46,085 bases of DNA from a bacterium. Lineage in GTDB: Bacteria > UBP6 > JAFGXH01. Position 1 is the stretch's first letter, and each line of letters starts with the position of its first letter. Position numbers and translations under genes: made by a program. The notes under the pieces are model-generated. The model was not told where the DNA came from, made no database searches, and was given only the letters and a program-made list of their open reading frames with translations. Below are positions 16,424-21,754 of this stretch, in pieces. Location of the stretch: contig JAMOQH010000080.1 of NCBI GenBank assembly GCA_027064085.1, positions 1 to 46,085 on the forward strand, read 5' to 3'.

Positions 16424-19400
16424 ATGTTTAAATTCAGTAAGAACTTCTTTTATATGATAGGGATTGTAATTCTATTTTCAAAAGTGTTTGCTTGTACAGG
16501 CTCTGACGGGGGAGGTTGTGTTCCTCTAGAATTAATACCAGAAGGTTACAGAGCTCAACAATATCAAGATGATAATCCTGTTTTAACTAATGTAACTCAA
16601 GTCAGAATTACTCAAAATGGCCTTGATTATGCTAAAGACCATATTGGAGACATAATAAAAACTATTATGCCTACTATGGTTATGCCTAATGATGAAAATG
16701 GGAACACTAGAATCAGATTTTGTGTTCCATCTCAATATGGTAAACAAGGCTTAGATTATGGCGTTGCTAGTCGTTGTAGCCAAGCTGATTGTGATTTATG
16801 TTATGATAATAGTGATCATGGAGCAAGTTGCGAAAATCAATTTACTTGCGACGGAGTTTATGGTCAAGAACTAGTTATTACATTTTTAAAAGATAGCTTA
16901 GTATTAGAACCTAATGATGATGGAACAAATGCTGATGAAATTTTTGGTCATGCTGATTTACAAATATCACCTATTGAATTTTGGGTAGATACCTGGGAAG
17001 CTTGGGGTAATCAACATACTGTTTGTCATATAGGAACAAATGTAAATGATGAAAACAGAAAAATGCCTATAGACTTACATATAGATTTTACCATTAACAC
17101 ATTAAATCCTGCTGAAACATCATTTAAAATAATATTTCCTGAAAATCAAATTACAGAAGATAGTATTGCACATGAATGTGACGGTACATTTACTGAGCTT
17201 GGAGTTGGTTTAATTAAAGGTATGATAGTTGATCAAATAAATCCAGTAATTGACAACATGGTTTCATCACTTTCTGATACTATGTTATGTGCAAGAACTG
17301 TTCCTATTGATGAAGATGATTTTTCACAAGGTTTTCAATGCCCTATGAATGCTCCAGCAAGTGCAACAGCAGGAAATGGCTGTTTAGCAACCGAAGAATG
17401 TGATGATGGATATTATTGTGAAGGAGGTTATTGTAAAATTGATAATCAATGTAACTTATACGACCCTGAAAATCCAGATACAGAAACATACAAATGTGAA
17501 AAGGGCTTCTGTGATAAAAATTCTGGTAACTGTGTTGTATCACCTTACTGTATGGAAACAGAAAACCAGTGTTGGAAACAAAAACTTGGTGTTGATGGTA
17601 GAATAGACATTATGGCCATGTTGAGTAGTTTCATAGAAACAACAAGCCATTCATGGATGAATTTTTACTTAAATTTAGGACACTATGCCAAATCACAGTC
17701 AAATGGTATGACAATTGGAGTTTTAGCAGGAACAAGTAGTGATTTCAATCCATGTGTTACACCTAGCAATAAAGAATTTAATAAAATAATACCTGAAATA
17801 ACTATGTTTAATAGTAATGAATTAAATGGACAACCATATCATATAGGTTTAGGAATTTCTCAGTACTTTTTTAATCAATTTTTAGATAGTGCTTATAATG
17901 GAGGAGCATTATGTCTTGATATAGATTCAAAAGTATCTAGCATGATTACAACCGATTTATTTGGTTTATTAATTCCATCTATTAACAACCTAACATCTAA
18001 AGTAAATTCAGCTCTTATGATAGCAATCCGACCTAAAAAAGCTCCTTTTATAAAGATTGGCCCAGGTAATACTAATGCAAATGGAGATATAATTATAGAT
18101 CAAGCATTACTAAATGTTAAAATTAACGATTTAGATTTAGATTTCTATGCATTTTTAAACGATAGATATGTTAGAATATTCACAACAACAGTGGATTTAA
18201 ACTTAGGAATAAATTTAGATTTAGATGCAGAAGGTAAATTAATTCCTGTTTTAGCTCCTATTAAATTTTCAACAGAAGATGAGGCGGGTGCTTTAAGCAA
18301 TTTAAGGGTTTCTAACTCAGAAATACTTAGGGAAACAGATACTGATATTGCAGAATTACTTCCTGGAGTAGTAGAAATGGCTATGGGAATGATTCCATTA
18401 AATTTTGATCCAATTGCCCTACCTTCTTTTATGGGTTTTGGAATTGATATTAAAGATATTACTCAAATCACAGAAGGAAATGATGACGAAACGAAAAATT
18501 TCATAGGGATTTTTGCTGATATTCTTATTGGTGTTGAAGAACCTCAAAATATTACATTAAATAATATAATTTTAGAACAAAAGACTATACCAAGGATTAA
18601 AAACTTAAGAAAAGGAAAAAAAGTTTCTTATACTTTTAAAATCAATTCTGATTTAGGCTCAAATATAGAATACCAATACAGAATAAATAAAGGCTTTTGG
18701 ACAACATTTAAAAAAGGAAATATAGTTAAAATAGATAATCCTATTTTAAAATTACAAGGAAAATACAATATTGATATAAGAGCAAGAAAAATTGGAGAAA
18801 CAAAAACTTTATCCAAAATAATAACTAAAACAGTAATAGTAGATGCAATTTCTCCTAAAATTTCTATAAAACAAGCTAAAAACACTATAAAAATTAATGC
18901 AAAAGATAATATTACCAATAATGTTAAATATTTTGTAAGCACAGATAATTCACCTTATACAGAATATAATAAAGCTCCTAATATTAAAATACCTGCAAAC
19001 AAACAAAGCATGTTAGTTAAAGTAAAAACCATTGATGAATCAGGTAATGAGAGTATTATGAGCAGAAGATTTAATTTTGACAATAGGATAGTCTTAAATA
19101 CAAATAATTTACAAAATAAAAAAGAAGAAGTAGGTTGTTCTTATGGAAACAACAGTAACAACTCTGTTTTTATTCTTTTTATAATTGCATTAATTGCACT
19201 ACTTGGAAGGAAGAAGAATTTACTTCTTTTATTAGTAGCATCATTTACAATATTTTTTTACGGATGCAGTGATAATGGCCAAAATGGCAACTCATGTAAA
19301 ACAGACAAAGACTGTGAAAATGGCAAAATCTGTGTTGAAGAAATTTGTGTAACAGGTAACCGATGTGAAGAAGGTAGCACTGATTACAAATGTAGTGAAT

Positions 19401-21754
19401 GCTATCTTCCAGGCCGTTGTACAGAGCCAACTGGAGATAATCCATGCCATGAAGGATGTGAGTGCAATGTAACATTTGGACAATGTTTTAAAATAGAAGG
19501 ATATTGTACACAAAATGATGATTGTCAAAATGATGATTATGAATGTAAAGATAATTTATGTGTTCCTAAAAGATGTGAAAACGATAATGATTGTGCAGGA
19601 AAAGTAGAATGCAATGGAGATCACAGCCATCCTATTTGTAATCAAGCAGGAGCATGTAGTTGTTTTCAACCATGTGATGGTGGTTGTCCCAATGGAAAAT
19701 TTTGTTGCTTAGATGAATCAAATACAGGTGATTATAATCAATGTCTTGAAAATCCAGAAGTTTGTGATTTAACTTGTGATCCTGGTTATGAAATTAAAGT
19801 TACAGACGAAGGAAGCATAGATGAAATGAGCTGTAAAAGAGTTGGAGTTCAATGCGAATGCGTAGAAAAACCTCATTTAAAACTTGGTACTATTGGTTTA
19901 TACTCTAAATCTGCAGTTTGGAACGATGGAGAAAGTAATAGAGTTATTGTTGTTGCTTATAATAGTTTATATAAAGACTTAGTTTTAGGTTTATATGATA
20001 AAAATAAAGAAACTCTTGACAATGAACATATAACTTGGACTTTTATAGATGGTATTTTAAATGATGGCGAAAATAGTGCAGAGATAACTAATGGCCCAAC
20101 TGGCCCAAGAGGCGGTATCTCTCAATTAGGTATTGATGTTGGAGAATATACCTCTGTTGCAGTAGGAACAGATAATAAAATACATATTTCTTATTACGAC
20201 AAAGAACATAAATCTCTTAGATATATAACAGTTACCAAACATGATAATAATGGTGATGAAACAGACAAACAAGTTTGGGATATTTCAGCCCCAGTTATAG
20301 TTGACCAAGGAAGTGAAACTAGAGACACTGGTTATTATACTAGTATTACTCTTGATAACAACAATAATCCAACTATTACTTATATGACAAAAGATTATAA
20401 AGATGGAAATAACTATAAATCAAGTTTAAATATTGCAATATTAAAACCAGATAACACATGGATTACTGATATTTTAGATTCAGATATTAAAGATTTACCT
20501 TGTAATAATTCTTGTGCTAACAATCAAAAATGCTTATTTGATGAAGATGCTGTTTTAGCCTGTGAAACTGATTTAGTTACAGATACATTTAATTCTACGA
20601 CTAACAACTTAACAGTACCAGACAACAATCCTAGTGGTGTAACTTCTGCAATTACAATTCCTTCTAACACTCAGGTAAAAGAATTTAGAATTTCATATAA
20701 AATTTCTCATCAAGCAGCAGGTCACATTAAAATAGTATTAATTTCACCTGAAAGAAGAGAATATCCACTTGTTAACGCAGTTACAGACCCAAATACAGTT
20801 GATAGCAACACTCCTGATGGCATTAATGTTATAAACAAAAAATTAAACCAAATAAAAGATATAGATGCTGGTGGAACTTGGGTATTAAAAGTAGTTGATA
20901 CTCATTATAACATTCAAGGAACACTAGAAAATTGGTCTATTTCAATTAAATCACTTGCAGACAAATCCCCTTATTGTGGTGCAACTTGTCAAAATACACA
21001 AGAAACATGCGCTCCGGCTTGTTCTTCAATGGGAAGCGAATTATGTGCCTCTGATGGTATTTGTAAAAAAGAAGCAAAAGAAGTTACAGCTAAATACTAT
21101 ATTAATGGAGTTGGTTTATTTAATAGGTCTGTAAAATTTGGAAATAATCTTGGCATTACATATTACGATTCTATAAATGGCAACTTAAAATATATCCATT
21201 ATAAACCCTCAACTATGCATATAATTGAAAATAAAATTATCGATTCGGGTAAAGTTGGAAGAAATGCTAGTTTTACTGTTATAAATAATATAGCTCATAT
21301 TACTTATAGAGACAAAGCTGGTAATTTGAGGTACTTACAATATGCTCCAACACAAGCAGTAAATCAATCTTTGTTAGTTGATGATGGTTTAAGAGTTACC
21401 GATGGAAAATATTCAATTCATAAAATTGGTTCAGATTCTGTTGTTGTGGAAAATGGTATTAATGAATATGATATTTACTATTACGATGCAACATCAAGAA
21501 ATGTTTTATTTAAACATTATAAAACTTCAACTAACGAATTAGATGAAAATCCAACTATTTTTGAAGACTTAAAAGAAAAAGATGATAGTAATTATGAAGG
21601 TAGTTTTGGTTTTTATTTAAATCATTTAAAACTAGATAGTCAAGATATCTTTTCAACTTTCTACTACAGAACACAGGTTGGTCAAAAAACAGATGCAGAG
21701 TATAACTCTCTAGAAAAACCTGATTCTATGGGTAAAGTTAGAATTATTAAATAG
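16424..21754 (+). CDS. Giant Cys-rich surface protein: apparent fusion of a MYXO-CTERM-type protein and a lipoprotein
   Basis: 1776 residues in one open frame. The N-terminus is an export signal ending VFAC (C24), possibly a lipoprotein. Residues about 45-300 are an amphipathic region, 305-375 a Cys-rich repeat tract, and about 800-895 Ig/Fn3-like strands. Then comes C905, a hydrophobic helix (about 914-926), RKK, a second hydrophobic helix (about 932-946) and a lipobox-like YGC (C948). After it lie more Cys-rich knots of the 'CxxDxDCxxGxxC' type, beta-propeller-like 'YYD' repeats, and a proprotein-convertase P-domain (about 1385-1512). The middle reads like the tail of one exported protein joined to the signal peptide of the next, with no stop and no internal ATG. 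GGGGG precedes the start. Function unknown; an adhesin or surface sensor is plausible. Confidence 0.8.
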   Translation: MFKFSKNFFYMIGIVILFSKVFACTGSDGGGCVPLELIPEGYRAQQYQDDNPVLTNVTQVRITQNGLDYAKDHIGDIIKTIMPTMVMPNDENGNTRIRFCVPSQYGKQGLDYGVASRCSQADCDLCYDNSDHGASCENQFTCDGVYGQELVITFLKDSLVLEPNDDGTNADEIFGHADLQISPIEFWVDTWEAWGNQHTVCHIGTNVNDENRKMPIDLHIDFTINTLNPAETSFKIIFPENQITEDSIAHECDGTFTELGVGLIKGMIVDQINPVIDNMVSSLSDTMLCARTVPIDEDDFSQGFQCPMNAPASATAGNGCLATEECDDGYYCEGGYCKIDNQCNLYDPENPDTETYKCEKGFCDKNSGNCVVSPYCMETENQCWKQKLGVDGRIDIMAMLSSFIETTSHSWMNFYLNLGHYAKSQSNGMTIGVLAGTSSDFNPCVTPSNKEFNKIIPEITMFNSNELNGQPYHIGLGISQYFFNQFLDSAYNGGALCLDIDSKVSSMITTDLFGLLIPSINNLTSKVNSALMIAIRPKKAPFIKIGPGNTNANGDIIIDQALLNVKINDLDLDFYAFLNDRYVRIFTTTVDLNLGINLDLDAEGKLIPVLAPIKFSTEDEAGALSNLRVSNSEILRETDTDIAELLPGVVEMAMGMIPLNFDPIALPSFMGFGIDIKDITQITEGNDDETKNFIGIFADILIGVEEPQNITLNNIILEQKTIPRIKNLRKGKKVSYTFKINSDLGSNIEYQYRINKGFWTTFKKGNIVKIDNPILKLQGKYNIDIRARKIGETKTLSKIITKTVIVDAISPKISIKQAKNTIKINAKDNITNNVKYFVSTDNSPYTEYNKAPNIKIPANKQSMLVKVKTIDESGNESIMSRRFNFDNRIVLNTNNLQNKKEEVGCSYGNNSNNSVFILFIIALIALLGRKKNLLLLLVASFTIFFYGCSDNGQNGNSCKTDKDCENGKICVEEICVTGNRCEEGSTDYKCSECYLPGRCTEPTGDNPCHEGCECNVTFGQCFKIEGYCTQNDDCQNDDYECKDNLCVPKRCENDNDCAGKVECNGDHSHPICNQAGACSCFQPCDGGCPNGKFCCLDESNTGDYNQCLENPEVCDLTCDPGYEIKVTDEGSIDEMSCKRVGVQCECVEKPHLKLGTIGLYSKSAVWNDGESNRVIVVAYNSLYKDLVLGLYDKNKETLDNEHITWTFIDGILNDGENSAEITNGPTGPRGGISQLGIDVGEYTSVAVGTDNKIHISYYDKEHKSLRYITVTKHDNNGDETDKQVWDISAPVIVDQGSETRDTGYYTSITLDNNNNPTITYMTKDYKDGNNYKSSLNIAILKPDNTWITDILDSDIKDLPCNNSCANNQKCLFDEDAVLACETDLVTDTFNSTTNNLTVPDNNPSGVTSAITIPSNTQVKEFRISYKISHQAAGHIKIVLISPERREYPLVNAVTDPNTVDSNTPDGINVINKKLNQIKDIDAGGTWVLKVVDTHYNIQGTLENWSISIKSLADKSPYCGATCQNTQETCAPACSSMGSELCASDGICKKEAKEVTAKYYINGVGLFNRSVKFGNNLGITYYDSINGNLKYIHYKPSTMHIIENKIIDSGKVGRNASFTVINNIAHITYRDKAGNLRYLQYAPTQAVNQSLLVDDGLRVTDGKYSIHKIGSDSVVVENGINEYDIYYYDATSRNVLFKHYKTSTNELDENPTIFEDLKEKDDSNYEGSFGFYLNHLKLDSQDIFSTFYYRTQVGQKTDAEYNSLEKPDSMGKVRIIK

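Follow-up and report, generated by a model that had tools for sequence, protein, structure and literature searches.

The gene at positions 16,424–21,754 of the window—the whole 46,085-nucleotide stretch of contig JAMOQH010000080.1 (assembly GCA_027064085.1, phylum UBP6) analyzed here—is strongly supported, by sequence comparison, as a real, inherited fusion of two formerly separate proteins. The fused gene thus joins once-separate proteins, each bearing a sorting signal of its own. The conserved fusion quite likely encodes a two-protein precursor, the membrane hairpin of which would be cleaved on its first side by a CPBP protease, after C905, and on its second by LspA, before C948. Its product probably must be cut into two lipid-anchored proteins.

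The frame runs through its 1776 codons with zero internal stops and carries a strong Shine–Dalgarno sequence (GTGGGGGC) immediately 5' of the ATG. The order that the first-pass annotation had read between residues 905 and 948—Cys, helix, RKK, helix, YGC, and then Cys knots—was confirmed on rereading of the frame and is kept in two orthologues. G904–C905 lies at 19,133–19,138, RKK929–931 at 19,208–19,216, and G947–C948 at 19,262–19,267; on the Kyte–Doolittle hydropathy scale, helix 1 averages 3.0 and helix 2 averages 1.95. The fused protein is the sole match to the pattern C–helix–basic–helix–[GAS]C among 403 ORFs (172,000 aa) of the same family—a uniqueness valid at that stringency only, because the thresholds also miss both orthologues, which have two Trp residues in their first helix. 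With 0 matches in shuffled proteins and this lone match at scan stringency, the helix pair as a chance feature is ruled out. A further signal, absent from the first-pass annotation, opens the N-half itself: the lipobox VFA-C24 in the window gene and VFS-C20 in the orthologues. The precursor has three lipidatable Cys residues because this lipobox adds to C905 and C948.

Table 1. Coordinates of the fused gene, its parts, and the LspA-like genes of the type II secretion system (T2SS) operon; positions refer to the window unless a locus is given
Feature	Position	Strand	Basis or remark
Fused gene, 1776 codons	16424..21754	+	Open frame, Shine–Dalgarno, unbroken orthologues
N-terminal lipoprotein signal peptide of N-half, lipobox VFA-C24	16424..16495	+	C24 invariant in distant split homologues
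N-half, residues 24–905	16493..19138	+	Weak TULIP (LBP/BPI/CETP) similarity; separate genes in G273, G154, G290, G118
Internal MYXO-CTERM-like sorting signal: G904-C905-S, helix 1 (~914–928), RKK929–931	19133..19216	+	Orthologue conservation, tail alignments
Internal lipoprotein signal: RKK929–931 (shared), helix 2 (~932–946), lipobox FFYG-C948	19208..19267	+	
Cys-rich knots, residues 949–1146, start of predicted mature C-half lipoprotein	19268..19861	+	Resemble N-termini of other lipoproteins
Proprotein convertase P-domain, residues 1419–1507, in C-half	20678..20944	+	PF01483
LspA-like gene in T2SS operon	L171:5548-6360 (-) (G000:C164); L167:5901-6353; L168:5199-5639		

Full-length, unbroken orthologues (L005 and L006) are present in both other family genomes examined, at 42% identity; the fusion is carried by three genomes, which belong to two genera represented by metagenome assemblies. 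The contigs of L005 and L006 are also present, as L065 and L066, in separate public assemblies. G904, C905, R929, K930, K931, G947, and C948 are invariant in the three orthologues while the helix letters drift, and insertions or deletions at the junction keep to whole codons. When the two closer orthologues are compared, the junction has a dN of 0.13 and a dS of 0.59 (~12 synonymous and ~12 nonsynonymous changes); the globular halves of the same two are tighter, at a dN of 0.06–0.07. The excess of dS over dN at the junction, drawn from ~24 changes only, argues that it is translated and under purifying selection. Neither homologues with a soluble linker in place of the helix pair nor a stop at the junction, by which the first-pass annotation had set its reading at risk, were found.

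The two signals that meet at the junction have counterparts at the ends of stand-alone proteins. As judged by BLAST of the junction against the ORFs of fetched loci, residues 880–934 align with the last 35–50 residues of stand-alone proteins (342–391 of 394; 497–532 of 534; 719–763 of 763; 564–601 of 604) and residues 931–977 with the first ~50 residues of stand-alone lipoproteins. The assignment of the first signal to the C-terminal sorting type and of the second to the lipoprotein type, both made in the first-pass annotation, is thereby borne out. A genome-wide search with a junction profile finds at least 27 other family proteins that end in [GS]C[SNTD][YFI]..., a helix, and a basic cluster—a lower bound, as the census derives from searched and fetched stretches of genome. 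The stop follows 2–7 residues past the basic cluster in these 27 tails, and most of the proteins have a signal peptide at their start. Among tail-bearing family proteins, only the fused gene and its orthologues run on, for ~800 residues further.

The internal tail features the order of a MYXO-CTERM signal—invariant Cys, hydrophobic helix, basic cluster—but not its position at the extreme C-terminus. The family tail consensus, [GS]C[SNT][YF]..N, is missed by the public MYXO-CTERM model: TIGR03901 (curated cut-off of 20 bits) has no matches in genomes G000 (that of the window), G001, and G002, even with E-values of up to 10 allowed. Its cut-off is passed in five genomes of the phylum, so that the MYXO-CTERM signal extends past Myxococcota if the phylum is separate from Myxococcota. 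In the phylum, MYXO-CTERM-like tails also terminate large proteins from other families, some of them clustered (L035–L064).

The C-half signal features a basic n-region, a helix, and a lipobox Cys: the RKK-helix is followed by FFYGC, IISGC, or IIGGC in the three orthologues, with residues allowed in the lineage census. This signal is internal to the primary product and N-terminal in the split homologues. In the 43 lipoprotein-like N-termini of the lineage, F is the commonest residue at −3 (19/43), Y occupies −2 in 2/43, and G occupies −1 in 7/43; the lipobox FFYG-C is atypical in general yet, by this count, fits the lipoproteins of the lineage. A 257-aa frame in L142 (G002:C223:12001-21000) bears a lipoprotein signal at its start and the tail CSFSGSN...FFIKKRDEK, and given this frame, double lipid anchoring may recur.

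The halves, which the first-pass annotation had proposed to search for separately, are found as distinct genes in distant bacteria. A full profile run against 386 genomes yields distant homologues of this kind in G273, G154, G290, and G118; half-specific profiles find no further homologues of either half in the phylum. In G273 (67% GC), the N gene and the C gene are adjacent, in the same order, and overlap by one base as TGATG; their pairwise E-values against the window halves are 2e-34 (N) and 2e-14 (C). The N gene of this pair starts with a lipoprotein signal (...LIVAAC), ends in GGGCGCS...WRRRSSRRDARTKAVK, and scores 18.1 bits against TIGR03901 (cut-off 20). The C gene starts with MNARTCLVGALALTLAGVANPGCSCG, which is a lipoprotein signal. 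The pair is split between contigs in G154, G290, and G118. A Cys-type tail terminates the complete N genes of G154 (ACGC..RVRKKA) and G118 (AGC..WRKKSVSC), and the N gene of G290, interrupted by the contig end, reads ..AWGC... there. C24, G904, C905, and R929 are invariant over the fused and split N proteins. Since the split homologues have complete terminal sorting signals, the halves were probably once lipid-anchored separately.

As judged from these sequences, the ancestral state is likely a TGATG-overlapping pair as in the distant G273. The first-pass annotation had suggested, as one of two possibilities, fusion of two neighboring genes by loss of a stop. The separate and, in one case, adjacent genes uphold the neighbors, but the stop loss alone is insufficient because the second gene of a TGATG overlap is in another frame; a frame change is needed too. 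Unfused neighbors of comparable type are also seen at other loci: a Cys-type-tail gene is followed by a lipoprotein gene 10 nt on in L140 ((-); G000:C23) and 198 nt on in L132 ((+); G001:C134).

The N-half shows a weak, below-threshold resemblance to the LBP/BPI/CETP (TULIP) lipid-binding family: it scores 21.3 bits against PF02886, under the cut-off of 23, and the distant N homologues have sub-cut-off scores against PF01273 and PF02886. The C-half holds the Cys knots, a P-domain, and a possible beta-propeller. Its match to PF01483 passes the gathering score (42.2 to 69.3 bits vs. 21), with an E-value of 2.4e-10 in the window gene and down to 3.1e-19 in the orthologues. The predicted model of the C-half matches the furin P-domain, and the fold search supports the P-domain only. 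The structure predictions of the two halves are too poor to support further assignments (mean pLDDT of 40 and 47), and a profile search of solved structures gave nothing useful for them.

In the proposed origin and maturation, the stop and the frame break of a TGATG pair would have been lost, leaving the tail and the lipoprotein signal back to back around one basic cluster. Sec would export the N-half, which would be lipidated at C24. Helix 1 would then halt the transfer with RKK remaining cytoplasmic, and helix 2 would re-insert such that the C-half is exported and both halves come to lie outside. C948 would be lipidated by Lgt and C905 likewise lipidated; the myxosortase-like CPBP protease would cleave after C905 and LspA before C948. 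The predicted outcome is an equimolar pair of lipid-anchored proteins plus a leftover hairpin—the N-half product being anchored at both ends and the C-half product being a lipoprotein. The type II secretion system could carry both products to the cell surface.

The first-pass annotation had advised looking for a myxosortase gene, and the window's genome holds one candidate, found with the MrtX model: a single CPBP protease (G000:C182:43679-44269) with the EExxxR and HxxxN motifs (EEFFYR and HGISN). Its best scores go to myxosortase families, all under the curated cut-offs—91.4 bits against Mrt_core NF040914 (cut-off 100) and, as its top family match, 104.5 bits against MrtP (cut-off 250). Because it stays below every curated Mrt cut-off, the protein is termed myxosortase-like and not a member. 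An MrtX-like match occurs in 27 of the 28 phylum genomes, with Cys-type tails in many of them; the myxosortase-like protein and Cys-type C-terminal signals thus co-occur across the clade. The myxosortase-like CPBP gene lies directly 3' of ftsY on the same strand (L017:1486-3580 (-); G000:C182).

The window's genome also encodes LspA, several Lgt paralogues, and a complete type II secretion operon. Across the 28 genomes of the phylum, the Lgt-family matches per genome number 3 to 7, and LspA is usually single. The window's genome carries a tandem lgt-lgt-lspA-lspA (L085:9732-12591). A Cys-rich insert is present in one Lgt, and the candidates for the lipidating enzyme of the Cys-type C-terminal signals include an Lgt paralogue. 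An LspA-like gene (PF01252; NxxDR, NxAD) sits between gspF and gspG of the T2SS operon in all three family genomes (Table 1). In the window's genome, its frame continues into gspG without a stop, and gspG retains its own AAGGAG-ATG. A T2SS-linked lipoprotein peptidase may matter to surface lipoproteins.

Several other readings of the junction bear weighing. An artefact of sequencing or assembly, with a stop lost or a frameshift introduced near 19,220, is suggested by the metagenome origin of the assembly and by two terminal signals abutting precisely here, but is next to impossible: an equally unbroken junction occurs in three assemblies at 42% identity with whole-codon indels, and error or chimera is excluded because two orthologues keep the arrangement without a stop. 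The fusion would be only apparent if the C-half were also, or mainly, translated from a start inside the tail of the first gene. The two g2 orthologues hold an in-frame ATG within helix 1, preceded by a GGTGGAG element, and these may be the relic of an old start. This reading is nonetheless highly unlikely: none of the three orthologues has a stop that would end the N-half, and for the window gene an internal start is excluded because no in-frame ATG, GTG, or TTG lies between residue 879 and C948.

The remaining readings accept the fusion and differ in what becomes of its product. It is quite unlikely that the protein stays uncut, its permanent membrane hairpin tying two periplasmic domains in the inner membrane. 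The hairpin topology would be self-sufficient for this, and the CPBP protease does lie under the Mrt cut-offs, but a plain hairpin would need neither the flanking Cys residues nor the basic cluster, which are invariant despite the divergence of the helices, and the split halves carry complete terminal sorting signals. Alternatively, only one signal may be used—LspA, for example, freeing the C-half and leaving the N-half anchored by the hairpin, or the reverse. The two enzymes differ, a first cut may block the second site, and mrtX mutants of M. xanthus still surface part of the substrate, possibly uncut (PMC11980579). Against this outcome, which appears unlikely, stand both Cys residues, kept in all three orthologues, and the candidates for both proteases encoded in the genome. 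Cutting on both sides of the hairpin is the preferred reading.

An exported bacterial polyprotein cleaved at an internal signal peptide is known from the cytochrome bc1 complex of Bradyrhizobium (fbcH), where the cleavage is of the signal peptidase I type and yields respiratory subunits; unlike the predicted junction of the window gene, it involves neither a C-terminal sorting signal nor lipidation at the junction. A literature search for internal lipoprotein signals in polyproteins found no precedent, and we know of no internal MYXO-CTERM signal whose basic cluster also serves a lipobox. With classical Lgt/LspA maturation, the window gene shares a basic n-region, a hydrophobic helix, a lipobox Cys, and a lineage-typical Cys-rich mature start, but its signal lies ~930 residues into the chain and lacks a start codon of its own. 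With the MYXO-CTERM/myxosortase systems (MrtX, MrtC, MrtP), it shares the succession of Cys, helix, and basic cluster, a CPBP glutamic intramembrane protease, and the T2SS; it differs in that the signal is internal and missed by TIGR03901 and that the protease scores under all curated cut-offs. In M. xanthus, MrtX cuts MYXO-CTERM proteins in a Cys-dependent manner, and these proteins use the T2SS; the cleavage has been demonstrated in M. xanthus and E. coli (PMC11980579).

An internal MYXO-CTERM motif in a presumed fusion is already on record with MXAN_5598 of Myxococcus xanthus, for which a two-gene fusion with the usual processing and anchoring was proposed (Guo, Haft and Wall 2025, PMC11980579). 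Both genes carry a MYXO-CTERM-type signal mid-ORF. However, the second part of MXAN_5598 is an outer-membrane beta-barrel with OmpA domains, whereas that of the window gene is a lipoprotein sharing the basic cluster; in addition, the window fusion is conserved across genera and has a known unfused pair. The overlapping traA and traB genes of M. xanthus, in which the end of a MYXO-CTERM gene overlaps the next gene (PMC11980579), resemble the G273 pair in this respect; they are unfused, and no lipoprotein with a tail-adjacent lipobox follows. As far as the literature searched shows, the back-to-back sharing of a basic cluster with a lipobox, the cross-genus conservation, and the unfused overlapping pair are new.

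Bacterial polyproteins that yield two exported proteins are rare. On balance, the sequences slightly favor a heritable polyprotein in which two different intramembrane protease systems, a C-terminal sorting protease and LspA, would each cleave one side of a common hairpin and thereby always yield the surface lipoproteins 1:1, the first of them doubly anchored. Such a protein lets a myxosortase-type protease and LspA be compared on the same molecule with regard to the order of their cuts, their independence, and their need for lipid. It also bears on what the MYXO-CTERM field asks about the enzyme that attaches lipid to the tail Cys and about the function of the signal away from the C-terminus. 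With its genes still separate, the distant TGATG pair allows the states before and after fusion to be compared, and it suggests a joint action of the two proteins.
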